In this document: positions 1 through 12,200 of the stretch, one piece after another | Numbering within the stretch: the first letter of the stretch is position 1 | How the letters are laid out: every line of letters begins with the position of its first letter | From: Robertkochia flava | GTDB lineage: Bacteria > Bacteroidota > Bacteroidia > Flavobacteriales > Flavobacteriaceae | NCBI RefSeq assembly: GCF_020166515.1 | Contig: NZ_JAINZT010000002.1 | Span: forward strand, 434,001 to 498,000 | Direction: 5' to 3' | Length of the DNA stretch: 64,000 bases | Program-made: the position numbers and the translations under genes | The notes under the pieces: generated by a model | What the model saw: only the letters and a program-made list of their open reading frames with translations | Told to the model about the DNA's origin: nothing | Databases searched by the model: none

Positions 1-399
1 GAGATAGTAGGGGGTAAGATCCTGCCCTCCTCCAAACCAGGAGTCGATAACCGCTCCCGTTTTGTCGTACATTTCAAAATACCTCCAGTTCGCATGAACA
101 GTAGGCACAAAAGGGTTTTTTGGATGGATCACCAGGCTCAGGCCGCAGGCGAAAAAGTCGACATCTCCCACCTTAAAATAGTTTTGCATTGAAGCGGGCA
201 GCGCGCCGTGCACAGCAGAGATATTAACCCCACCCTTTTCAAAAACAGCACCGTTTTCAATAACCCGGGTGCGTCCGCCTCCACCGCCTTCCCGCTCCCA
301 AAGGTCTTGCCTGAAAGTGGCCTTTCCGTCGATGGCTTCAAGTTCTGAAGTAATTTGATCCTGCAAATTCAATATATAATCGTAAAATTTCGATTTCAT
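1..399 (-). CDS. hemF: Coproporphyrinogen III oxidase, oxygen-dependent (C-terminal part outside the window)
   Basis: Oxidative decarboxylation of coproporphyrinogen III to protoporphyrinogen IX using O2, in the cytosol. The visible 133 residues match the N-terminal half of HemF: the glycine-rich REGGGGGRTRVIENG segment, VFEKGGVNISAVHG, then HPKNPFVPTVHANWRYF and SWFGGGQDLTPYYL, which carry the conserved substrate-pocket and metal-region residues. The start ATG at 399 overlaps the stop of the upstream gene (TGATG), so translation is probably coupled. It is the last visible gene of the minus-strand heme operon, and the oxygen-dependent enzyme fits an aerobe. The stop codon lies beyond the left edge. 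Identification is secure. Confidence 0.95.
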   Translation of the reverse strand, partial: MKSKFYDYILNLQDQITSELEAIDGKATFRQDLWEREGGGGGRTRVIENGAVFEKGGVNISAVHGALPASMQNYFKVGDVDFFACGLSLVIHPKNPFVPTVHANWRYFEMYDKTGAVIDSWFGGGQDLTPYYL

Positions 400-905
400 C
401 ATTTTTCATCTTTTATATATATCAACTCCCCGGGAAACCGGTGGAGTTCTTCTGTGCTGTTTATTTTCCTCGCAGTTTTCAGCAAAGGTAATAAGGCTTG
501 GGTTAATTGGGAGTTCTTCACCCCGTTTCGGTCAAAGTTTTGCAGGTACAATTGCCTGCCAGCGGCATTGTTGTGCAGGTCCATACTCCGGGCAAGAGGA
601 GGGTTTGGGGAAAACGTTTCGTGCCAGTCGGTCAGTGATTTAACCCAGCTCCGGACCTTTTCGCTGTTTTTTTCAACAACAAATGCATTCCGCATGAGCA
701 TCATATTCCAAAGGGCATGCCGGAAGGCGTTGGCCTTATTGTTCTTGTGGTGGCTTTTACCGAACATCCGGTCACAAATAAGGAGGCATTGTCCCGTTGC
801 CGTAATCGCACTGAGAAATAATAAGGGGTGGCGGAAAAAGAATCCGGACACCCCTTTGAATTGTTTCCATTGCAGGATCTTTAACAATTTTAAAGATCCC
901 TTCAT
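399..905 (-). CDS. DUF6973-like protein of unknown function in the heme operon
   Basis: A 168-residue protein with no recognised enzyme assignment. Visible features are a short hydrophobic stretch near residues 25-45, then a conserved-looking block with [19 protein letters not shown], later TDWHETF and [10 protein letters not shown]. The spaced His, Glu and Asn residues (HALWN, HE, DLHNN) resemble the pattern I associate with DUF6973, and could form a metal or catalytic site; this is inference. The start overlaps the hemE stop by 4 bases and its stop overlaps the hemF start, so it is locked into translation of the heme operon. It could be a membrane-associated accessory of coproporphyrinogen handling, or an unrelated passenger. 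Confidence 0.7.
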
Positions 906-1930
906 TTGCCTTCGTATTCTTTAACGGCCTCGATAAACGCCTTGGCGTGGTCTACGGGAACCGTAGGCAGAATTCCATGCCCGAGATTCACCACATATTT
1001 ATCTTTCCCGAACCGGTCTATCATGGTATGGACCATTTTTTTGAGTTCCGGAATGGGTGTGAACAGTCGCGAAGGATCAAAATTTCCCTGCAGTGTAATA
1101 TTCCCTCCGGTGAGGTTCCTGGCAATTTCAGGAGAACAGGTCCAGTCTACCCCGAGAGCGCTGGCTTTACTCTTTGCCATGGTGTCCAGGGCAAACCAGC
1201 ATCCTTTTCCGAAGACGATCACCTCTGTCATCGGTTCAAGAGCCTCCACGATCTGGTTGATATATGGCCATGAGAAGGTATGGTAATCTTCGGGTGACAA
1301 CATGCCGCCCCAGGAGTCAAAGATCTGAACGGCATCTACCCCCGTTTTTACCTTTTCCTTCAGGTAGGCAATGGTAGTGTCGGTGATTTTCTGAAGTAAT
1401 ACGTGAGCTGCCTCGGGTTGTGAAAAGCAGAAGCTCTTGGCTGTATCGAAGCTTTTCGAACCCTTTCCTTCAACCGCATAGCAGAGGATGGTCCATGGGG
1501 ATCCTGCAAATCCGATAAGAGGTACCTCGTTGTTGAGCATTTCCTTGGTCAGGCGGATCGCATCCATGACATAACCCAGGGTTTCATCTATATCCGGAAC
1601 GATCACCTGTTCAACATCGGCGGCAGAGCGGATAGGCTTGGGTACCCATGGCCCGACTCCCGGTTTCATTTCCACATCGATATTCATGGCCTGGGGAATA
1701 ACCAGGATATCCGAAAAAAGAATGGCTGCATCCGGCTTTACGATCCGGATGGGTTGCACGGTGATCTCAGCAGCAAGTTCCGGAGTGCGACACCTGGTGA
1801 AGAAATCATACTTTTCCTTCAGGGCCATAAATTCAGGCAGGTATCGTCCGGCCTGACGCATCATCCAGACCGGGGGTCTGGAAACTTCTTCTCCTCTCAG
1901 GGCTCTTAAAAACAGATCGTTCTTTATCAT
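902..1930 (-). CDS. hemE: Uroporphyrinogen decarboxylase
   Basis: Cytosolic enzyme converting uroporphyrinogen III to coproporphyrinogen III by four decarboxylations. The 342-residue length is normal. Signature motifs are present: [15 protein letters not shown] near the N-terminus (substrate-binding Arg), [13 protein letters not shown] (the catalytic Asp region), [16 protein letters not shown], and the C-terminal [16 protein letters not shown] with its conserved His. It overlaps the hemD stop by 4 bases (ATGA) and the next gene by 4 bases, so it is part of one transcript. No anomalies were seen. Confidence 0.97.
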
Positions 1931-2607
1931 TGTTCTACGCTATGTTGTCTTTTAGGATTAAAATATTTTACGACCTCAAGGATCAGGTGTTCGGCTGTTG
2001 GTTTTGCGGCAATGGCCACTTTGTTTTCAAAGCCTTCGAAGGCCTTAGCGGTCGTGGGGCCAATGCAAAAACACACCGCGTTTCCGGTTTCGTTCTTTTG
2101 CCGGAATGCATTAACAGCACTTGGGCTGAAAAAGAGTATGGCATCAAACCTCCCGGGGGCTTCAATCACATTGGTAAGGGTGCGGTAGACTTCGATCTCA
2201 GTTAGTGGGGTGTTATGCTCTTTCAATATACGCGGCAATTCGTCCCTGCGGTTGCGGGTACCCAGATAATGAAAATCCTTACCCTTGTAACGGTCTGCCA
2301 GGGCATAAGCCAGTTGTTCCCCCGAAGATTCGCATAGCACCGGCGGATAACCGGCTTCGGTTAATGCCGCTGCGGTTTTTTCTCCTACACAAAAACACTG
2401 GCCGATCCGGAGGTCGGCACCTCTTATCGCCTTGACCGCATTCTGACTTGTAATAATGGCTCTGTCGATTTTATGCGGATGAGAAAACGGAACGGTTTCT
2501 GTTTTCACAAAAGGGATTTCAACCAGGGCAAATCCGGCATTGAGCAACCGCTCCTTTTGGGGAGTGGTGAGGCTTTTAGTGCTCAGTATGCGAATGGATC
2601 CTGCCAT
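1927..2607 (-). CDS. hemD: Uroporphyrinogen-III synthase
   Basis: Closes hydroxymethylbilane with inversion of ring D to give uroporphyrinogen III. HemD is poorly conserved in sequence, but length (226 residues) and features fit: IIFTSQNAV-type segment ([12 protein letters not shown]), [27 protein letters not shown] and [10 protein letters not shown] followed by CIGPTTAKA, the two-lobed pattern of the family. Its position between hemC and hemE, with a 4-base overlap with hemE and a 20-base gap after hemC, supports the call strongly. Confidence 0.92.
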
Positions 2608-2627
2608 ATGCTGTGAATTGTTACCGA

Positions 2628-3548
2628 TTATTTTGCCAGGGTTTTTTTGATCTTCTTCATAAGGTTCTCTCCGCCGTTATTCAGTACTTCTTTTGCGCAA
2701 ATACTTCCAAGGCCCTCGACATTTTCAATGAGTACTTCCTTTTGTACCTCAACTTTTTGTTTGCCGTCCAGGGAATGCAGGACGCCTTTAAAATGCAGGT
2801 AATCCACATCTATGGTAGCCAGTGCTCCGATAGGGGCAGTACATCCTCCTTCAAGGGTCCGGAGAAAATCTCTTTCTATAGCGGTGCAAATATCCGTCTC
2901 GTAGTCGTTTAGTTTGTTGAGTGCCTTGAGTAGTTGCTTGTCTTTTTCAAGGGCGGCGATCATCATTGCTCCCTGAGCCGGTGCCGGAACCATCCAGTCC
3001 AGCTCTATAGCATCTTCGGGCTTGATCGCAATGCGTTCCAGTCCGGCAGCTGCAAAGATCGCTGCATCCCAGGGGTTGTTCTTTAGTTTTTCGAGGCGAC
3101 TGTTAACATTTCCTCTCAGATCAGAAACCTGGTGTTTGGGAAACCTGCTCAGCCATTGTGCCTTTCTTCTCAGGCTGCCTGTTGCTATATGGCCCTTTTT
3201 GCTGGACAGAAAGTCGTCTCCGTTTTTTAAAACCAGCAGGTCTGCCGTATTGGCGCGTTTAAGAACAGCGGCCTTTACAATCCCTGCAGGCAGGGCTGTG
3301 GGAACATCTTTCATGCTGTGTACGGCGATGTCAATTTCTTCCTGTAACAGGGCAACATCCAGGGTTTTGGTGAAAACCCCGGTAATTCCGAGTTCGTAAA
3401 GGGGCTTGTCAAGAACGAGATCTCCCGTTGATTTTACGGGGATTAGCTGTGTTCTGTACCCAAGTGCTTCCAGCTTTTGCTGCACATTCCTGGCCTGCCA
3501 CATAGCGAGTTCGCTATCGCGGGTGCCAATTCTTATCACTTTATTCAT
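2628..3548 (-). CDS. hemC: Hydroxymethylbilane synthase (porphobilinogen deaminase)
   Basis: Polymerises four porphobilinogen molecules into hydroxymethylbilane in the cytosol. The 306-residue protein begins VIRIGTRDSELAMWQA, has HSMKDVPTALP near residue 80, the GSLRRKAQW and DLRGNVNSRL arginine clusters that bind the growing chain, and LEGGCTAPIGA with Cys236 as the attachment point of the dipyrromethane cofactor. The start overlaps the hemA stop by 4 bases. All catalytic hallmarks are retained. Confidence 0.97.
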   Translation of the reverse strand: MNKVIRIGTRDSELAMWQARNVQQKLEALGYRTQLIPVKSTGDLVLDKPLYELGITGVFTKTLDVALLQEEIDIAVHSMKDVPTALPAGIVKAAVLKRANTADLLVLKNGDDFLSSKKGHIATGSLRRKAQWLSRFPKHQVSDLRGNVNSRLEKLKNNPWDAAIFAAAGLERIAIKPEDAIELDWMVPAPAQGAMMIAALEKDKQLLKALNKLNDYETDICTAIERDFLRTLEGGCTAPIGALATIDVDYLHFKGVLHSLDGKQKVEVQKEVLIENVEGLGSICAKEVLNNGGENLMKKIKKTLAK

Positions 3549-4798
3549 TTAGAAGTTTCTAGTTGAAACACTTTCTTTATAAGTTCAATGCTCTCATCCG
3601 AAGAATTCGGGCTTTCCCGAAGGTGGTTGGCGAACTGGGTGGTGATCTTCTGGATCAGACGGTCGCTGAGGATCTCGGCATGTTCATCATTAAAGTCCTT
3701 GATCTTTTTTCTCTGGTTGTCGATCTCGGCTTCTTTCAGGGATTTCAATTTCTTTTTGAGTGCTTTGATCGTGGGGGCGAACTTCCGGGTTTCCAGCCAT
3801 TTTTTAAAATCGCCTTCTACCTCTGCTATGATCTGTTCGGCCTTGGGGATATAACGTTCCCTTCTCTTCAGTGTGTCGTCTGTCATTTTTGAAAGCTGAT
3901 CGATGTGTACCAGGGTAACATTTTCAAGCTCCGCCACATTTTCATGTACATTTCTGGGGATAGAAAGATCGAGAACCAACAACGGCTTGTTGGCGTAGAT
4001 CAACTCTTTGGAAACCGTGGGGTGCTGCGCTCCGGTAGCCACAACCAGTACATCTGCCTTGCGAATCTCCTCCTGCAGCTGTCCGTACTCCTTAACCACC
4101 AGGTTAAACTTCCCGGCCACTTTTTCTGCCTTGTTCCTGGTGCGGTTGATCAGAACGATATGGTCGTTATTGGTGTGCTTTACCAGGTTTTCACAGGTAT
4201 TTCGACCTATCTTTCCTGTACCGAAAAGCAGGATGTTCTTTTGTGATATATTCGGAACTTTGGAAAGAATGTACTGTACAGAAGCAAACGCCACCGAAGT
4301 AGCCCCGGAAGAAAGTTCTGTTTCGTTCTTGATGCGTTTGCTGGCCTGGATCACCGAATTGCACAGGCGTTCCAGGAAGTGGTTGGTAAGTTCTTCTTCC
4401 TTCGAGGCAATAAAACCCTGTTTGATCTGGCTGATGATCTCAAAATCTCCCAGGATCTGGCTGTCTAATCCGGTGCCAACCCGGAACATGTGGTTGATGG
4501 CTTCGTAATTTTTATGGACGTAGCCCACACTTTGAAATTCTTCTACCGTACCGTTGGTATTTCCGCAAAGTAACTGGATCAGTTGAAAAGGGTGTTGGGC
4601 AAAACCATAGAGTTCTGTGCGGTTACAGGTAGAAGTTACCAGAATCCCGTCAATACCAGACGATTTGGCCTGACGTAGCAGGTTGGTTCTGTCTTCGTCG
4701 TTAAGACTGAATTTGCCACGTGTATGCACGTCGGCTTTTTTATAACTCAATCCTACTACGTAAAAAGAACTGTGTTTAGAGATGTTATAAGCTTTCAT
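3545..4798 (-). CDS. hemA: Glutamyl-tRNA reductase
   Basis: First committed step of C5-pathway tetrapyrrole synthesis: NADPH-dependent reduction of Glu-tRNA(Glu) to glutamate-1-semialdehyde. The 417-residue protein has the catalytic Cys58 in TSTCNRTELYG, the LGDFEIISQIKQ segment, the NADPH-binding GTGKIGRNTCENL motif, VLDLSIPRNV and a long helical C-terminal dimerisation region. hemL and hemB are not in this window. It is the promoter-proximal gene of the hem operon, reading away from an AraC-family regulator across a 201-bp intergenic region that contains a -7 element and a tandem repeat (separate entries). Confidence 0.96.
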   Translation of the reverse strand: MKAYNISKHSSFYVVGLSYKKADVHTRGKFSLNDEDRTNLLRQAKSSGIDGILVTSTCNRTELYGFAQHPFQLIQLLCGNTNGTVEEFQSVGYVHKNYEAINHMFRVGTGLDSQILGDFEIISQIKQGFIASKEEELTNHFLERLCNSVIQASKRIKNETELSSGATSVAFASVQYILSKVPNISQKNILLFGTGKIGRNTCENLVKHTNNDHIVLINRTRNKAEKVAGKFNLVVKEYGQLQEEIRKADVLVVATGAQHPTVSKELIYANKPLLVLDLSIPRNVHENVAELENVTLVHIDQLSKMTDDTLKRRERYIPKAEQIIAEVEGDFKKWLETRKFAPTIKALKKKLKSLKEAEIDNQRKKIKDFNDEHAEILSDRLIQKITTQFANHLRESPNSSDESIELIKKVFQLETSK

Positions 4799-4820
4799 TC
4801 AGTTTGTTCCGAATTGAGCT

Positions 4821-4829
4821 GCAAAAATA
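4821..4829 (-). promoter_or_regulatory. Predicted -7 promoter element of the hem operon
   Basis: On the minus strand this reads TATTTTTGC, a full match to the Bacteroidota -7 consensus TAnnTTTG, ending 22 bases before the hemA start. There is no good -33 TTG at the usual distance; instead the tandem repeat at 4850-4891 begins 20 bases upstream of the TA, which suggests an activator-dependent promoter. Confidence 0.6.
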
Positions 4830-4849
4830 GGATGGATCATTTTAAAAAA

Positions 4850-4891
4850 ATAACGCTCAAAGTACTTTTTATAACGCTTAAAGTGATTTGT
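4850..4891. repeat. Two abutting 21-bp direct repeats, candidate operator between hemA and the AraC-family gene
   Basis: Unit 1 (4850-4870) and unit 2 (4871-4891) match at 17 of 21 positions; the first 14 bases are ATAACGCTCAAAGT and ATAACGCTTAAAGT. A 21-bp step is two helical turns, the usual geometry for AraC-family monomers bound in tandem on one DNA face. The proximal unit lies where the -33 element of the hemA promoter should be. Shorter ATAAC repeats 10 bp apart (4956, 4966) and a 16-bp imperfect palindrome (4921-4936) lie nearer the regulator gene. Regulator identity is inferred from adjacency only. Confidence 0.55.
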
Positions 4892-4999
4892 ATGGTTTTT
4901 ACACATATTTTGGCTTAAAACCCTTAATTTTGAGGGATTGTCAAGGATTTAGCAAATAACTGTTTATAACAATTCTAAATAAATAAACCCGGTGGGGTT

Positions 5000-5896
5000 A
5001 TGGAAGAAGAAAAAAAAAATATCGCTCAAGGAACATCAAAGGAAGTGCGTTTTGAAGACGGCTTCAAATTGCTCATCACCAGAAATGATTCGTCATCTTT
5101 TGCTCAGTATACCAGGGAGGTAGACCGAACCTTTATTCAGTTTCACTTTTGCCTGAAGGGAGAAGGGAGCTTTTTATTTAATAATGGCAGTTATTCTCTG
5201 AGTTTAGGGGAGGATGATTCGCTATTGCTGTACAACCCGCAGCGGGATCTTCCCATGCATCTGGATCTCTCTGCCAATACCTGGGTGGTTTCGGTGCTGA
5301 TATCCATAAAGAAGTTCCACTCGCTATTTTCTCTTGAAGCCGGATACATTCCCTTTCTCAGTGAAGAGAATATGGACAAGAAATACTACAATACAGCCCC
5401 AATTAATCCCGCCATGGCAGTAGTATTGAGTCAGATCATTAATTATAACCTGCATGCCTCGGTTCGTATGCTCTATTTGAAGGGGAAGGTTTATGAACTT
5501 CTCGGGCTATACCTGAATAAGCCGGAAGACGCCGATATTGAGCAATGCCCTTTCCTTGTGGATGAAGACAATGTGAGGCGGATCAAAAAGGCTAAGGATA
5601 TCATTATATCCAGAATGACCGATCCTCCCGGACTTCAGGAATTATCGGAAGAAATCGGGCTTAACCTTAAAAAACTGAAAGAAGGTTTTAAACAGATCTA
5701 CGGGGATTCGGTGTACAGTTTTTTGTTTGATTATAAAATGGAGGTCGCCAGGCGAATGCTGGAAAGCGGCGAACACAATGTAAATGAGGTAGGTCTTAAA
5801 GTGGGCTACAGCACATCGAGTCATTTTATTGCAGCCTTTAAGAAGAAATATGCAACCACCCCTAAACGGTACATTACTTCTTTAAACAACGGGTAG
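5000..5896 (+). CDS. AraC-family (PchR-like) transcriptional regulator
   Basis: DNA-binding regulator of 298 residues. The C-terminal third (about 195-298) is an AraC double helix-turn-helix: LQELSEEIGLNLKKLKEGFK is the first HTH and NEVGLKVGYSTSSHFIAAFK the second, ending in the typical KKYATTPKRYI. The N-terminal ~180 residues look like a cupin-type sensory domain (FHFCLKGEGSFLFNNGSY) rather than AraC's arabinose domain. The layout resembles PchR-type iron or siderophore regulators. It is divergent from the hem operon and 870 bp upstream of hemH, so a role sensing iron, heme or a precursor is plausible but inferred. It probably binds the repeats at 4850-4891. Confidence 0.85.
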   Translation: MEEEKKNIAQGTSKEVRFEDGFKLLITRNDSSSFAQYTREVDRTFIQFHFCLKGEGSFLFNNGSYSLSLGEDDSLLLYNPQRDLPMHLDLSANTWVVSVLISIKKFHSLFSLEAGYIPFLSEENMDKKYYNTAPINPAMAVVLSQIINYNLHASVRMLYLKGKVYELLGLYLNKPEDADIEQCPFLVDEDNVRRIKKAKDIIISRMTDPPGLQELSEEIGLNLKKLKEGFKQIYGDSVYSFLFDYKMEVARRMLESGEHNVNEVGLKVGYSTSSHFIAAFKKKYATTPKRYITSLNNG

Positions 5897-5899
5897 TTT

Positions 5900-6667
5900 A
5901 TGAAAATACAGATTTTAATCCTTGTGCTCTACTTAATAGGGTGCAGTGACGGGGCCGAAAACAACCAGGAAGGTACTCCTGATGGGGGGGTGGATGCCCC
6001 CGTTGCGCAGCGTGTGCTGGTGTTCACCAAAACCGAAGGTTATCGTCACGGCTCCATCTCCGATGGGGTTTCCCTGATCAGGCGTTTAGGTCGCAATAAT
6101 GAATTCGGCGTTGACCGAACGGAAGATTCAGAAGACTTTAATAAGAACGATTTGGAGAAGTATGACCTGGTGATCTTTCTGTCGACCACCGGAGATGTGT
6201 TAAATGACGAGCAACAGGAGGCCTTTGAAAATTATATCCGGGCGGGCGGGAGTTTTATGGGAATTCATGCGGCCGCGGATACTGAATTCGACTGGCCCTG
6301 GTACGGCAATCTTGTCGGGGCGTATTTCGAAAGTCATCCTTCTGTACAGGAGGCTACGATTATAGTAGAAGATAAGGGACACCCCTCCACGTCCTTTTTG
6401 CCTGATACCTGGGAGCGCAGGGATGAATGGTATAATTTCAGGGAAATGTCGGATGAGATCCAGGTTTTACTTACCCTGGACGAGGAAAGTTATGAGGGAG
6501 GTGAAAACGGCGAATACCACCCTATCGCATGGTACCGTGAATTTGACGGAGGTCGCAGTTTTTACACCGGTGGCGGCCATACCGATGCATCCTTCAGCGA
6601 GCCCCTGTTTGAGGAACACGTTCTTGGAGGGATTCTTTGGTGCCTGAAGCGTACCAACCCCAACTAG
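5900..6667 (+). CDS. ThuA-like domain lipoprotein
   Basis: 255 residues starting 3 bases after the regulator gene, so probably co-transcribed. The N-terminus has a lipoprotein signal with lipobox LIGC (Cys around residue 15). The rest is a ThuA-type flavodoxin-like (class I glutamine-amidotransferase-like) fold: VLVFTKTEGYRHGSI, YDLVIFLSTTGDVLN, FENYIRAGGSFMGIHAAAD and FYTGGGHTDASF. ThuA-like domains are linked to sugar metabolism, but the biochemical function of secreted Bacteroidota versions is not settled. No catalytic assignment is made. Its place between a regulator and hemH is odd for a sugar protein. Confidence 0.85.
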   Translation: MKIQILILVLYLIGCSDGAENNQEGTPDGGVDAPVAQRVLVFTKTEGYRHGSISDGVSLIRRLGRNNEFGVDRTEDSEDFNKNDLEKYDLVIFLSTTGDVLNDEQQEAFENYIRAGGSFMGIHAAADTEFDWPWYGNLVGAYFESHPSVQEATIIVEDKGHPSTSFLPDTWERRDEWYNFREMSDEIQVLLTLDEESYEGGENGEYHPIAWYREFDGGRSFYTGGGHTDASFSEPLFEEHVLGGILWCLKRTNPN

Positions 6668-6712
6668 GTATTGGAATGTTCTATAGGCCTATTTAAATTT
6701 CATTGGCCGGCA

Positions 6713-6746
6713 TTGGAAAGAGGTTCTCATTAAGTTTTAACTTTGC
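6713..6746 (+). promoter_or_regulatory. Predicted promoter of hemH
   Basis: TTG at 6713-6715 and TAACTTTGC at 6738-6746 (full TAnnTTTG match, 22 bases apart), 20 bases before the hemH ATG. A CATTGG direct repeat with a 10-bp step (6701 and 6711) overlaps the -33 region, and the palindrome ATAGGCCTAT lies at 6683-6692. hemH can therefore be transcribed independently of the two upstream genes. Confidence 0.55.
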
Positions 6747-6766
6747 TAAAAAAATTATAGCTGTCT

Positions 6767-7804
6767 ATGAAAGGAGTATTATTGGTGAATCTGGGATCGC
6801 CGGATTCGACAGACCCAAAAGACGTCAAACGATATCTGGATGAATTTTTGATGGACGAACGTGTGATCGATCTGCCAAAGTGGCTCAGGACCTTTATTGT
6901 AAGAGGTATCATTCTGAACACCCGTCCTAAAAAATCTGCCGAGGCCTATTCCCGTATTTGGTGGGAAGAGGGTTCTCCGCTCATCGTATTATCGGAACGA
7001 CTCCGCGACAAGGTAGATGAAATGACAGCGGTTCCGGTGGTTCTGGCCATGCGTTATGGAAACCCATCCATTCAGGCCGGACTCAAGGAATTGCACGATA
7101 AGGGGGTAACCGATGTGCTGCTGTTGCCTTTGTATCCTCAGTTTGCCATGGCTACAACAGAGACCATCCTGGTGCTTGCAGAAGAGATTCGCAAACAACA
7201 GTTTCCAAATATGCAGTTCACCAATGTTCCGGCCTTCTACAATCATGACGATTATATCCGGGTGCTTTCAGAATCCATAAGGGAACATCTCAAGGATAAG
7301 GATTGGGAACATCTGTTGTTCTCATACCACGGGGTGCCCGAGCGACACATTAAAAAATCGGATATCACAAAATCACATTGCAAGATAGACGGTCAGTGCT
7401 GTAAGACCCCATCACCCGCCCACCAGTTCTGCTACCGGCACCAGTGTTATGAAACCACAAAACAGGTAGCGGCGTATCTCCAGCTAAAAGAAGGTACCTA
7501 TTCAACTTCTTTCCAGTCCAGACTGGGTATTGACCCCTGGTTACAGCCCTTTACAGACAAAACCGTAAATGGGTTTGCAGAAAAAGGTATGAAAAAGCTT
7601 GCCGTAGTAACGCCGGCTTTCGTATCTGACTGCCTGGAGACGCTCGAGGAGATCGGGATGGAGGCAGAGGAGGAATTCAAGGAAAGAGGCGGAGAGGAAT
7701 TCCACCTGATCCCCTGTTTAAATGACAATGAAGCCTGGGTGAAAGTAATCGCCCGATGGGTAGACGAATGGGCGCATCAGGAGCAGGCTTCGGTTACACA
7801 ATAA
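6767..7804 (+). CDS. hemH: Ferrochelatase
   Basis: Inserts Fe2+ into the porphyrin macrocycle, the last step of heme synthesis. 345 residues. Motifs: LLVNLGSPDSTDPKDVKRYL at the N-terminus, VLAMRYGNPS, LLPLYPQFAMATTET, the active-site His188 in LFSYHGVPERHIKKSD, and the late conserved DCLETLEEIGMEAEEEF with acidic metal-path residues. An unusual cysteine cluster (C205, C211, C212, C222, C227) directly follows the active-site loop; see findings. The MATE transporter starts 15 bases downstream. Confidence 0.97.
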   Translation: MKGVLLVNLGSPDSTDPKDVKRYLDEFLMDERVIDLPKWLRTFIVRGIILNTRPKKSAEAYSRIWWEEGSPLIVLSERLRDKVDEMTAVPVVLAMRYGNPSIQAGLKELHDKGVTDVLLLPLYPQFAMATTETILVLAEEIRKQQFPNMQFTNVPAFYNHDDYIRVLSESIREHLKDKDWEHLLFSYHGVPERHIKKSDITKSHCKIDGQCCKTPSPAHQFCYRHQCYETTKQVAAYLQLKEGTYSTSFQSRLGIDPWLQPFTDKTVNGFAEKGMKKLAVVTPAFVSDCLETLEEIGMEAEEEFKERGGEEFHLIPCLNDNEAWVKVIARWVDEWAHQEQASVTQ

Positions 7805-7819
7805 TTCAAAACGCATACT

Positions 7820-9178
7820 ATGGCCAGGATCTCATCCGAGGAATTGGGTACGGAACCCATAGGCCGGCTTTTGGTAAAACAAGCCGTGCCGGCTTCCATA
7901 GGGATCCTTGTCATGTCACTAAATATCCTGGTCGATACCATTTTCGTGGGGAACTGGATCGGGTCTGTGGCCATTGCCGCTATCAATGTGGTGCTTCCCG
8001 TATCCTTTTTTATTGCGGCCCTGGGTATGTCCATTGGTATAGGGGGAGCCTCTATGATCTCCAGGTCGCTGGGGGCAAAAAACAAGGAACACGCGCTTAA
8101 AACCTTTGGAAACCAGATCGTGCTCACCCTGGTGCTCACCTGTTTCCTTGTATTTTTAGGCGTGGGTTGGGCTGATGATATCATCCCTAAATTCGGAGGT
8201 AAGGGCGCCATTTTTGAGCCTGCCAGGATCTACTACCTGATCGTGCTCTACGGGGTGCCCTTCCTGGCCCTTTGCATGATGGGAAATAACGTGATCCGGG
8301 CCGAAGGAAAACCCCGATTCGGGATGATCGCCATGATCATTCCTTCTGTAGGGAACTTGTTGCTCGATTACCTGCTGATCAATGTGCTTGACCTTGGGAT
8401 GCATGGGGCAGCGTGGGCTACTACCGGCTCCTATCTCTGTTGTTTTCTTTATATCCTTTGGTTTTTCTTTTCTGATAACTCTGAACTCAAGATCTCCTGG
8501 TCGCATCTGGGATTAAACTTCAATGTTGTGAGTGAGATCGCTTCCCTGGGAGGAGTAACCCTGGCCAGGCAGGCTGTGGTAAGTGTGACTTATCTCTTTG
8601 TAAATAATATCCTGTTCGACCTGGGGGGAGAATCTTCTATAACCGTGTATGCCATAGTTGGGAGGATGCTCATGTTTGCGCTGTTTCCGGTCCTGGGTAT
8701 CACCCAGGGATTTCTTCCCATAGCCGGATATAATTATGGTGCCCATCATTACAGCCGGGTCAGGGAGTCCATAAATACGGCTATCAAATATGCAGCATTG
8801 CTTGGTCTGGTTGTTTTTGCCCTGATCATGGCTTTTCCATATCAGATCACACAGGTGTTTACTGATAATGCGGAGGTGCTTAGCGAAGCTCCGTATGCCA
8901 TGAGGTGGGTGTTTGCTGCCACTCCTGTAGTGGTGGTGCAGTTAATTGGTTCGGCCTATTTTCAGGCCATTGGAAAGGCGCGTCCGGCCCTGTTCCTCAC
9001 CCTCACCCGACAGGGTTTCTTCTTTATCCCCCTGGTGCTGATACTGCCGAAGTTTTTTGGTGAGTTTGGCGTATGGGTCTCATTTCCTATCTCAGATCTG
9101 CTTTCCACCGTGGTTACCGGCTATTTTCTTCATAAGGAGGTCCGCACGAAATTAGTAGGAAATGGTATCGATTCGTAA
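7820..9178 (+). CDS. MATE-family multidrug/solute efflux transporter
   Basis: 452-residue integral membrane protein with about 12 hydrophobic segments arranged as two similar halves. It starts EPIGRLLVKQAVPASIGILV, typical of MATE (MatE) proteins, and has IAAINVVLPVSFFIAALGMSIGIGGASMISR in the first half and IGRLxMF/VLGITQGFLPIAGYNYGA in the second. The family exchanges cations or drugs for Na+ or H+ across the inner membrane. Only 15 bases separate it from hemH, so it is probably co-transcribed. The substrate cannot be read from the sequence; a porphyrin or drug is possible. Confidence 0.9.
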   Translation: MARISSEELGTEPIGRLLVKQAVPASIGILVMSLNILVDTIFVGNWIGSVAIAAINVVLPVSFFIAALGMSIGIGGASMISRSLGAKNKEHALKTFGNQIVLTLVLTCFLVFLGVGWADDIIPKFGGKGAIFEPARIYYLIVLYGVPFLALCMMGNNVIRAEGKPRFGMIAMIIPSVGNLLLDYLLINVLDLGMHGAAWATTGSYLCCFLYILWFFFSDNSELKISWSHLGLNFNVVSEIASLGGVTLARQAVVSVTYLFVNNILFDLGGESSITVYAIVGRMLMFALFPVLGITQGFLPIAGYNYGAHHYSRVRESINTAIKYAALLGLVVFALIMAFPYQITQVFTDNAEVLSEAPYAMRWVFAATPVVVVQLIGSAYFQAIGKARPALFLTLTRQGFFFIPLVLILPKFFGEFGVWVSFPISDLLSTVVTGYFLHKEVRTKLVGNGIDS

Positions 9179-9221
9179 TTAATTTATAAATTGAGCCCTG
9201 AACTACTAACTGACTTTAAAA

Positions 9222-12200
9222 ATGCGAAATCTTCCCTTGCTTAGGAGCCTGCTCCTGTTGTGTGTGATGATGTCTTTTGTGCCCGCTGGTGCACAAAAGA
9301 ACAAGAGTGAATATTCAAAAGAATTGTACAGTTCCCTGGAGTACCGCCTTTTAGGGCCATTCCGTGGAGGCCGTTCTGCAGCTGTGACCGGGGTTCCCGG
9401 CAAACCCAACCTCTATTATTTTGGAGCTACCGGTGGAGGGGTATGGAAAACCGAAGACGGTGGCCGTACCTGGGAAAACCTCTCTGATGGTTATTTTGGA
9501 GGAAGTGTCGGGGCTATAACAGTTGCCGCAGGCGATCAGAACGTGATCTATGTAGGTGGAGGAGAATCTACCGTGAGAGGTAACGTTTCCTCAGGTTATG
9601 GTATCTGGAAAAGTGTGGATGCCGGAAAGACCTGGCAGCAGGCGGGTCTCGAAAAAAGCAGGCACGTTCCGCGAATCGTGGTGCACCCGGAAAATCATGA
9701 CATTGTTTACGCAGCCGTACTCGGGAATATTTATAAGGCTACAGAAGACAGAGGTGTTTACAAAAGTACCGATGGTGGTAAAACATGGAGAAAAACACTT
9801 TTCTCCAATGATATGGCCGGGGCAGTTGATCTTATAATGGATCCTAATAACCCAAGAATACTTTATGCTTCTACCTGGAGAATACAACGTACCCCTTACA
9901 GCCTGAGTAGTGGCGGAGAGGGTTCTGCGCTTTGGAAAAGTACCGATTCGGGGGAAACCTGGACCCGTATATCAGACAATGAAGGCTTTGCAAAAGGAAC
10001 CCTGGGGATCATCGGAGTTACCGTATCGCCGGTGAATTCTGAAAGAGTTTGGGCTATAGCAGAAAATAAGGATAAAGGTGGGGTCTATCGCTCTGAAGAC
10101 GGAGGAAAGACCTGGGCCTATATTAATGACAGCAGAAGTCTGCGTCAGCGTGCATGGTACTACACCCGTATTTATGCGGATACCCAGGATGAAGATGTGG
10201 TTTACGTAATGAACGTGTCCTATCATAAATCCAAAGACGGGGGTAAAACCTTTAGTGCCAGTAATGCTCCTCACGGGGACCACCATGACCTTTGGATTGC
10301 TCCGGAAGATCCGAAGCGTATGATCATCGCTGATGATGGTGGGGCACAGGTGTCCTATGATGGGGGAGAAACCTGGAGCACTTATCACAACCAGCCTACC
10401 GCTCAATTCTACCGGGTCACAACAGACAATCATTTCCCATATCGTATCTATGCGGCGCAACAGGATAATTCAACCATACGTATCGCACATCGTTCCAGTG
10501 GTTCAAATATCTCCGAAGACGACTGGGAGGAAACCGCCGGAGGAGAATCTGCCCATATCGCAGTAGACCCTGAAAATGATGATATAGTGTACGGGGGCAG
10601 TTACGGAGGATTCCTTACCCGTGTAAATCATGAAACCGGTTCGGTGCGTGCCATCAATGTGTGGCCCGATAACCCGATGGGCTATGGAGCAGAGGGCATG
10701 AAGTACCGTTTTCAATGGAACTTCCCTATCATCTTCAGTAAGCATAATCCCGATAAACTTTATACCTTCTCCAACCATGTACATGTAAGTGAGAACGAGG
10801 GGCAAAGCTGGGAAGTGGTTAGTCCAGACCTGACCAGGAACGATCCTGAGAAATTAAAATCTTCCGGTGGGCCTATCACCCAGGACAACACCGGGGTAGA
10901 ATATTACTGTACCATTTTTGCTGCCAATGAAAGTCCGCTGAAAGAAGGTTTACTTTGGGTAGGTAGCGACGACGGGCTTGTACATGTTACCCGCGACGGG
11001 GGACAGACCTGGGATAATGTTACCCCAAAACAAGCGCCAAAATGGCTTATGATTAACAGCATCGAACCTTCTCCTTTTGAAGAGGGTACCTGTTATGTGG
11101 CAGGAACACTTTATAAGGAAGGTGATTTTGCTCCTTACCTGTATAAGACCACTAACTTCGGGAAGACGTGGGAAACGATCACCGATGGTATTAACGAAGA
11201 ACATTTTACCCGGGTACTGCGTGCCGATCCGAATCGAAAAGGATTGTTGTATGCAGGAACAGAAACCGGAATGTACATATCATTTAATGACGGCGAAAGC
11301 TGGACACCTTTTCAGCAGAACCTTCCTGTAGTACCGATTACTGATCTGGCGGTAAAAGACAACAACCTGATCGTGGCTACCCAGGGTAGAAGTCTCTGGA
11401 TCATTGACGACCTGACTGTATTGCACCAGCTCGGGGATGAGGTGGCAAATGACGAAGATTACCTTTTTAAACCAAGGGAGAGTTATCGTACCCAGGGGCG
11501 TGGAGGTCGGACTTCTATAACTGCCGGAACCAATATCCCTAATGGGGTTATCACTCATTTCTACCTGAATGATTACGATGTGGAAAAGGATTCGGTGAGC
11601 CTTACCTACCTGGAAAAGGATGGAGACACCATTAAAACCTTTGCCAACTTTGCCAGGGAGGATAAGTTGAAGGATTTAAAAGCAGGGGGTAATACCTTTG
11701 TCTGGGATACCCGTTACGAAGGCGCGGAGCGTTTTGACGGCATGATCCTCTGGTGGGCCAGCCTCAGCGGAGCCAAGGCCGTTCCCGGAGAATACCAGGT
11801 AGTTCTCAATGTGAACGGAGAAGAGCAATCCCGAACCTTTGAGATCCTTCCCGACCCACGGGCAGAGGTTACAGTGGAAGAGATGCAGGAACAGTTTGAT
11901 TTTGTTAAGGAGATCAACGCAACAGTAGATGAGGCCCATAAGGCCATTAAAAAGATACGCAGGGTGAATTCGCAGCTCGACACCTTTATCGAACGCTATG
12001 GCGATCAGGAAGAAACCGCAGCGCTGGTTGAGAAGGCAAAGGCCATGAAGGAAAAGCTGGGAGAAGTAGAGAAAGCACTTTATCAGACTCAGAACCGAAG
12101 CGGACAGGACCCATTGAATTATCCGATCAGGCTCACCAATAAACTGGCGCACCTGAACAGCCTGGTAACCCTGGGAGATTTTCCTCCTACAGCACAGGAC

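Follow-up and report, generated by a model that had tools for sequence, protein, structure and literature searches.

Conserved tandem repeats in the hemA–araC intergenic region of Flavobacteriaceae: a probable operator for the control of heme supply

How is the heme biosynthesis operon of Robertkochia controlled, and does the AraC-family gene that lies divergently beside it take part? The window, i.e., the whole 64,000 nt stretch of DNA that was analysed, carries hemA (glutamyl-tRNA reductase, nt 3545–4798, minus strand; TIGR01035, 3.5e-84, above cut-off) as the first gene of the putative target operon, and hemA and the genes read as hemC, hemD and hemE are transcribed leftwards from nt 4798. 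All three lie on the minus strand: hemC (nt 2628–3548) is an ORF named by inspection, with relatives in 79 of the 80 loci closest to the query, the hemD-like CDS (uroporphyrinogen-III synthase, nt 1927–2607) matches NCBIfam PRK09189 at 5e-15, below the cut-off of that model, and hemE (nt 902–1930) is an ORF named by inspection only. The hemB gene is found just beyond the window edge (G000:C6:432512-433462). Transcribed rightwards, on the plus strand, are araC (nt 5000–5896), a gene for a ThuA-domain lipoprotein and hemH (ferrochelatase, nt 6767–7804; Pfam Ferrochelatase, 3.5e-102; TIGR00109, above cut-off). The ThuA-domain gene (nt 5900–6667) has relatives within the flank taken in 39 of the 80 closest loci. 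An RNA element was rejected, as Rfam gave no match at the gathering threshold in nt 1–12,000 of the window, and a scan of nt 4700–5100 for sigma-70 promoters found none.

The original prediction had described two abutting 21-bp units between the two operons, and these are present at nt 4850–4870 and 4871–4891, identical at 17/21 positions. When the 201-bp intergenic region was shuffled with its dinucleotides preserved, 0/2000 replicates contained abutting 21-mers of that identity. The only exact matches to the core ATAACGCTYAAAGT in the window are the two repeats themselves, and the full tandem pattern (≤3 mismatches) has a single occurrence in the 3.45-Mb genome. A perfect hemA -7 element had been placed 20 bp from the repeats, and it was confirmed at that distance as GCAAAAATA (read on the plus strand; nt 4821–4829, minus strand). 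The element TATTTTTGC, with core TANNTTTG at nt 4822–4829, reads CAAA..TA on the plus strand, and lies at offset -24 to -17 from the first operator unit.

For comparison with relatives, 81 loci (80 plus the window) were reduced to a non-redundant set of 73 at 85% identity; the 80 loci are the nearest to the query by construction, and genome-wide pattern searches of 199 and 397 genomes provided less biased draws. Loci L201 and L205 were left out of the results. The alignment of hemA–araC intergenic regions that had been proposed as a check revealed conserved repeats in a fixed geometry. In the -7 element the C, AAA, T and A are invariant (73/73), and its distance from the first unit has one fixed value in all 73 loci. 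That promoter-proximal unit, A (nt 4846–4865), overlaps the -33 position (TTA, minus strand, nt 4851–4853) and has the consensus ~AAAAA(T/C)AACGCT..ARG.AC, in which AACG (offsets 6–9) and the G seven bases later (offset 16) are invariant across the set. Unit B (nt 4867–4886) has the same orientation 21 bp away, and its CG and G contacts recur exactly 21 bp after those of unit A (C in 97% and G in 93% of loci at offsets 29–30, G in 96% at offset 37). TTG is the -33 consensus, and its absence at hemA, already pointed out for the window, extends to the relatives: at a spacer of 21, 69 of the 73 hemA promoters have TTA and four have TTG, while TTG at spacers of 17–20 or 22–25 occurs in none of them. 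Promoters lacking TTG at -33 in such a proportion are as expected if hemA depends on an activator. A search for further targets in the Robertkochia genome with a single unit returned 33 places at ≤2 mismatches versus 28 for the reversed pattern. With 0–1 mismatch the matches were unit A, a further unit inside araC (unit C, below) and C12:65398-65416, the sole other one-mismatch copy in this genome.

Linkage of the repeats to the regulator gene is seen throughout the family. An AraC ortholog (E ≤ 1e-40) is encoded by 188 of 199 family genomes, the nearest named relatives are R. sediminum and R. marina (86–87% identity in the AraC protein), and araC is divergent from hemA in 80/80 of the closest loci and 29/30 further ones. 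When loci were picked by the A+B DNA pattern alone, 29/30 again lay between hemA and a divergent araC. This pattern (≤3 mismatches) was matched in 124/199 genomes, compared with four for the reversed pattern, and its matches are distributed as 123/188 AraC-positive versus 1/11 AraC-negative genomes (p = 3e-4, with genomes that are not phylogenetically independent); 65 of the 188 AraC-positive genomes had no match. The geometry of -7 plus unit A (≤2 mismatches) was matched in 309/397 genomes, mostly once each, versus 12 for the reversed pattern, and was unmatched in 88. Additional A+B matches at 3 mismatches lie inside open frames in G005, G017 and G167, and in an intergenic region in G195. Trained with the 73 loci, a position weight matrix gave scores of 6.6 to 38.8 on six distant orthologous loci outside the training set (protein identity 35–43%), where the next-best place in each scored -15.8 or lower. 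Two genomes, G027 and G062, have hemA without this AraC. Taken together, the paired repeats are very probably the conserved binding site of the neighbouring AraC-type regulator. Two loci differ in arrangement: at L188 (G026:C86) two unit copies, 31 bp apart, surround the araC start instead of one, and at L196 (G154:C3:38500-42700) two short genes separate hemA and its AB site from araC, one of them specifying a lipoprotein that by eye may be truncated haemoglobin-like, with no Pfam match.

The side of the intergenic region nearer the regulator was also predicted to hold autoregulatory elements. A palindrome at nt 4921–4936 is present as described, but it overlaps the araC -7 element (TAATTTTG, nt 4925–4932, plus strand; TA..TTTG-like columns) and its symmetry is, by eye, not kept in a 29-locus alignment (L030, with no hemA beside araC, was left out). 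A better candidate for autoregulation, and one that had gone unnoticed, is unit C (AAAAATRTCGCTNAAGGT, nt 5015–5034), which lies inside the coding start of araC. An I/V/N/T codon there has C as third base in 73/73 loci and the codon that follows is GCT in 65/73, compared with 263 of 1002 Ala codons elsewhere in araC; of all 4-codon windows in the gene, the three with the largest excess of synonymous identity fall at this unit. Amino acid conservation was rejected as the cause, as the residue varies while the third base does not, and the element of L207, a hemA-less locus, stands before the apparent ATG. Constraint at silent positions and the placement at L207 thus mark unit C as a DNA element. 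Autoregulation of araC through it is likely, and looping via unit C only possible.

A pair of ATAAC sequences 10 bp apart had likewise been noted. Both exist (nt 4956 and 4966), but the second belongs to a different element, a Fur-box-like palindrome in the araC leader (TTTATAACAATTCTAAATA, nt 4963–4981), and it was read there as ATAAC because of one departure (TTTATAAC) in the window copy. The conserved form, TTTAGAAYNRTTCTAAATA, scores at least 15/18 in 73/73 loci and starts 31 nt past the end of the araC -7 element, which occupies offset -38 to -31 from the palindrome. Loci L023, L024 and L028 lack it or have only a poor version. The consensus of the box in the family is the Riemerella anatipestifer Fur-box palindrome, and the window copy has one mismatch to the search pattern; for that species, the part of the source covering it describes 5'-ATTTAGAATTATTCTAAAT-3' as predicted by software, with EMSA on four promoters carried out afterwards (PMC5609570). 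In the Robertkochia genome the box pattern (≤2 mismatches) was found at 10 places, versus 6 for the reversed control, so that single matches are weak evidence. The other nine include one at feoAB, one at a gene for succinate dehydrogenase cytochrome b and one at a gene for a multihaem cytochrome c, as well as one in coding sequence within a cytochrome oxidase gene cluster and four without an evident iron link. Another box (L038, C8:273799) stands some 5 bp ahead of the first ATG of a gene for a DUF4856 lipoprotein, and the lipoprotein gene that follows is imelysin-like by inspection only; they are perhaps an imelysin-type iron-regulated pair. The genome has a single FUR-family gene (94.8 bits, cut-off 23.1). 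The iron link that had been suggested is thus supported by the Fur-box-like palindrome, and the regulator gene is likely to be under Fur control.

The regulator is a protein of 298 aa. Its double helix-turn-helix DNA-binding domain matches Pfam HTH_18 (62.6 bits, cut-off 33.6; 4.4e-17), and Pfam returned no match to its N-terminal domain. An AlphaFold2 model (mean pLDDT 83.8, pTM 0.59) has an AraC-like cupin followed by an AraC DNA-binding domain; the former matches the cupin/dimerisation fold of 2arc (Z 9.8, 134 aligned residues, rmsd 3.6, model residues 19–175) and the latter the AraC DNA-binding domain 2k9s (Z 14.1, 106 residues, rmsd 2.2). All of the 20 NCBIfam matches were below cut-off, and no PchR model was among those listed. 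Cys-Pro is a common dipeptide. At residues 183–184 of this protein it is invariant in 73/73 loci, and it is present in nine diverged orthologs (as CPFL, CPFI, CPFM or CPYI) and in the other hemA-less copies that were read; in seven of seven paralogs it is absent from the aligned position (an eighth gave no alignment). It falls in a segment predicted to be flexible (residues 176–187, pLDDT < 50). In the passages of a review that deal with Irr and IRP2, Cys-Pro is the heme ligand motif of these proteins (PMC11442138). The Cys-Pro of this linker is a possible heme motif, and heme sensing by the regulator is a hypothesis.

Genomes that lack heme synthesis genes offered a separate view of the operator. 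Among the 199 genomes, hemA was not found in 17; hemB was absent from all 17 and present in the 6/6 hemA-positive genomes tested alongside. Several of the hemA-less genomes are incomplete (73–99%). AraC is missing from 9/17 of them versus 2/182 hemA-positive genomes (Fisher p = 1e-9, uncorrected for relatedness or completeness). In G224 and G019, pattern matches away from hemA lie upstream of a TonB receptor gene followed by one for a HmuY lipoprotein (PF14064), and HmuY operons were then inspected in all 17 genomes having one among the 30 searched. Eight hemA-less genomes keep AraC, and the operator is found at hmuRY in 6/6 of those with a readable promoter, with scores of 27.2 (G089), 19.4 (G133), 32.7 (G174), 33.8 (G075), 27.7 (G213) and 47.6 (G224). 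The two uncounted are G012, in which the contig ends before the hmuR promoter, and G155, which has no HmuY match. A seventh hmuR site (48.2) occurs in G019, in which AraC was undetected in a genome that is 84% complete. The training hemA sites score at least 33.2 (median 67.5) and four of the seven hmuR sites are lower (19.4–32.7); the next-best score is -13.4 or less at the hmuR loci and -16.3 in the whole window. Sites in G224, G019, G075 and G213 are matches of the pattern search, and those in G089, G133 and G174 were found only by inspecting HmuY operons. All seven hmuR promoters have a -7-like sequence at the offset seen at hemA, one base off TANNTTTG in G133 and G174. No operator was found at the HmuY operons of G122, G194 and G068 (hemA-less, AraC undetected), nor at those of six hemA-positive genomes (five with AraC, and G027 without; best score -22.8).

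In G089, G133, G174 and G075, araC and the heme-uptake operon are immediate divergent neighbours, and the operator lies between them. No site was seen at L214, the second HmuY locus of G075, on a contig that starts inside the receptor gene. In a tree of 38 AraC proteins the six hemA-less rows require two changes, falling into a clade of five plus G224, and a member of the same genus as G224 (G391) keeps the ordinary hemA–araC arrangement. In G213 the operator is at hmuRY and araC is elsewhere without a site; a third AACGCT unit is found in this genome (L215, G213:C44), 63 bp beyond unit A at hmuR and beside a Fur-box-like sequence. Locus L229 (G155:C15), of the genome without hemA, hemB or HmuY, has an araC that keeps its AB site (35.1) with no obvious target gene adjacent; the site is possibly a relic, an autoregulatory element or the operator of an unseen target. 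One operator serves hemA in heme makers and heme import in auxotrophs, which most simply means that heme supply is what is controlled, and it is highly probable that this supply, either made or imported, is the regulon.

A mechanism can be proposed that accounts for these features. As half-sites that point the same way at a distance of 21 bp, units A and B would place a dimer of the regulator over the -33 position of a hemA promoter that has a strong -7 element and no -33, and the half-site of unit C inside araC would let the regulator act on its own gene. The Fur-box-like site in the araC leader, present in most close relatives, may couple araC expression to iron. When heme is short, the regulator at A–B would contact RNA polymerase and switch the hem operon on, as AraC does at araBAD, which is an example of class II activation. 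When heme is plentiful, it would bind the conserved Cys-Pro linker and activation would end. In lineages without heme synthesis the same regulator–operator pair would drive the TonB receptor/HmuY importer. The probability of this reading as a whole (AraC operator, activation at low heme, silencing by heme) is put at about 0.6. Its parts differ in strength: it is very likely that AraC binds A, B and C, activation is only slightly favoured over repression, and direct sensing of heme by the regulator is tentative. That the neighbouring regulator controls the hem operon through the tandem repeats, as originally predicted, is strongly supported on comparative grounds by the conservation of the repeats, their fixed geometry, the co-loss of araC with hemA and the operators at hmuRY.

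Both hemA and the importer should be expressed at low heme, and either a heme-silenced activator or a heme-requiring repressor would serve. Activation is favoured by the missing -33, the tandem half-sites over that position and the fixed distance to -7. In favour of repression, on the model of Irr at hemB, is the Fur-like box, through which low iron should raise AraC. A heme-loaded AraC-type protein would then repress hemA and hmuRY by covering -33, and Fur-raised AraC would halt porphyrin synthesis when iron is scarce, whereas the same protein activating hemA at low iron would risk a build-up of porphyrin. Such a repressor makes physiological sense of the Fur-like box, accounts for feedback on heme uptake, uses an operator that overlaps -33, and has a counterpart in the account of Irr given in part of a review, where this regulator, which has a CP motif, acts as the repressor of hemB when iron is limiting (PMC11442138). 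It is nonetheless judged rather unlikely: TTG is missing at -33 in all but four of the 73 promoters, as would be expected with an activator, the single spacing of half-site to -7 is retained in the hmuR promoters, and tandem direct repeats at -33 are the layout of class II activators.

Equally doubtful, and overlapping with the other readings, is a light switch as in AraC itself, in which a dimer would loop from A (or B) to C and repress both genes, and in another ligand state would fill A–B and activate. Unit C is conserved and lies 165–170 bp from A in 72/73 loci, about 16 helical turns, and the distances from A to the Fur box and from the Fur box to C are negatively correlated (r = -0.53, a value that ignores relatedness and omits the remaining locus, at 156 bp). 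In other lineages, however, the A–C distances are 122, 134, 135, 162 and 244–248 bp, which are not whole turns, and helical phasing of the two units thus fails beyond the main 73-locus set.

A regulator that responds to iron alone, by way of Fur and possibly an iron ligand, with heme genes as merely iron-linked targets, would fit the box at araC and the boxes before feoAB and the cytochrome b and cytochrome c genes named above. It is improbable given the operator at heme uptake in hemA-less genomes, the single match in most genomes, and the four araC–hmuRY divergons, in which no Fur-like box at araC was seen by eye. Chance or low-complexity similarity of DNA without a regulatory role, which the AT-rich intergenic region and short core might invite, is contradicted by the shuffles, the 309 matching genomes and the silent-position constraint, and has a negligible probability.

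The preferred reading, a heme-silenced activator, has its closest parallel in E. coli AraC at araBAD (araI1-I2, araO2). Both have an AraC-type DNA-binding domain with a cupin-like N-terminal domain, half-sites in tandem at a distance of 21 bp, the proximal of which covers -33/-35, divergent promoters and a distant half-site on the araC side. Here, however, the targets are genes of heme supply rather than of sugar use, the promoter is of the Bacteroidetes kind, the araC leader has a Fur-box-like site, and the distant half-site is within the coding start of araC at a spacing that is not helically phased across lineages. PchR and YbtA are AraC-family activators of iron uptake; they share the family, and their operator lies, as in the hemA-less genomes here, at the promoter of a TonB receptor gene, but the main target here is heme synthesis and no NCBIfam equivalog reaches cut-off. 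Irr of Bradyrhizobium, as portrayed in sections of PMC11442138, also couples iron and heme status to heme synthesis and has a Cys-Pro motif; it belongs to the unrelated Fur family and acts on hemB, and heme binding is only putative for the present regulator. PefR (MarR), HrtR (TetR), HbrL (LysR) and HssRS, which in the same sections control heme synthesis, uptake or export, are likewise not of the AraC family. The target operon of the hemA-less genomes, TonB receptor plus HmuY (PF14064), is that of the HmuRY/Hfp systems of Bacteroidetes, which is without this operator in the 6 hemA-positive genomes tested; hfpRY of F. psychrophilum is described as induced at low iron in the relevant part of PMC9331221.

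The searchable literature held little on the regulation of heme synthesis in Bacteroidetes. The heme-regulator families named in the pertinent passages of PMC11442138 are Fur, MarR, TetR, LysR and two-component systems, with AraC not among them, and the word AraC is absent from the searched text of that review and of PMC12670364. In titles, abstracts and passages, no account of an AraC-type protein controlling hemA or HmuRY in members of the Flavobacteriaceae was recognised. The AraC-type operator layout is already known, and its use on heme supply appears to be new. If the proposal is true, the exact operator and the regulon of a dedicated regulator can be named for most of a large family, and the regulator–operator pair has kept its task, heme supply, while the genes performing that task were replaced. 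The broader idea that an AraC-family Cys-Pro heme sensor is the main heme-supply regulator of Flavobacteriaceae, a low-heme activator that measures itself via unit C, is set by Fur and was handed to import more than once, is speculative and less likely than not. The heme-auxotroph genomes make the question of the signal directly testable. One of them, G224, also has a regulator gene in an unusual setting (L192, G224:C15:174500-179500): in this genome, which has no matches to hemA or hemB, araC adjoins a gene for a 514-aa hemC–hemD fusion (Porphobil_deam + HEM4) and has none of units A, B and C in evident form, and the operator is carried at hmuRY on a different contig.
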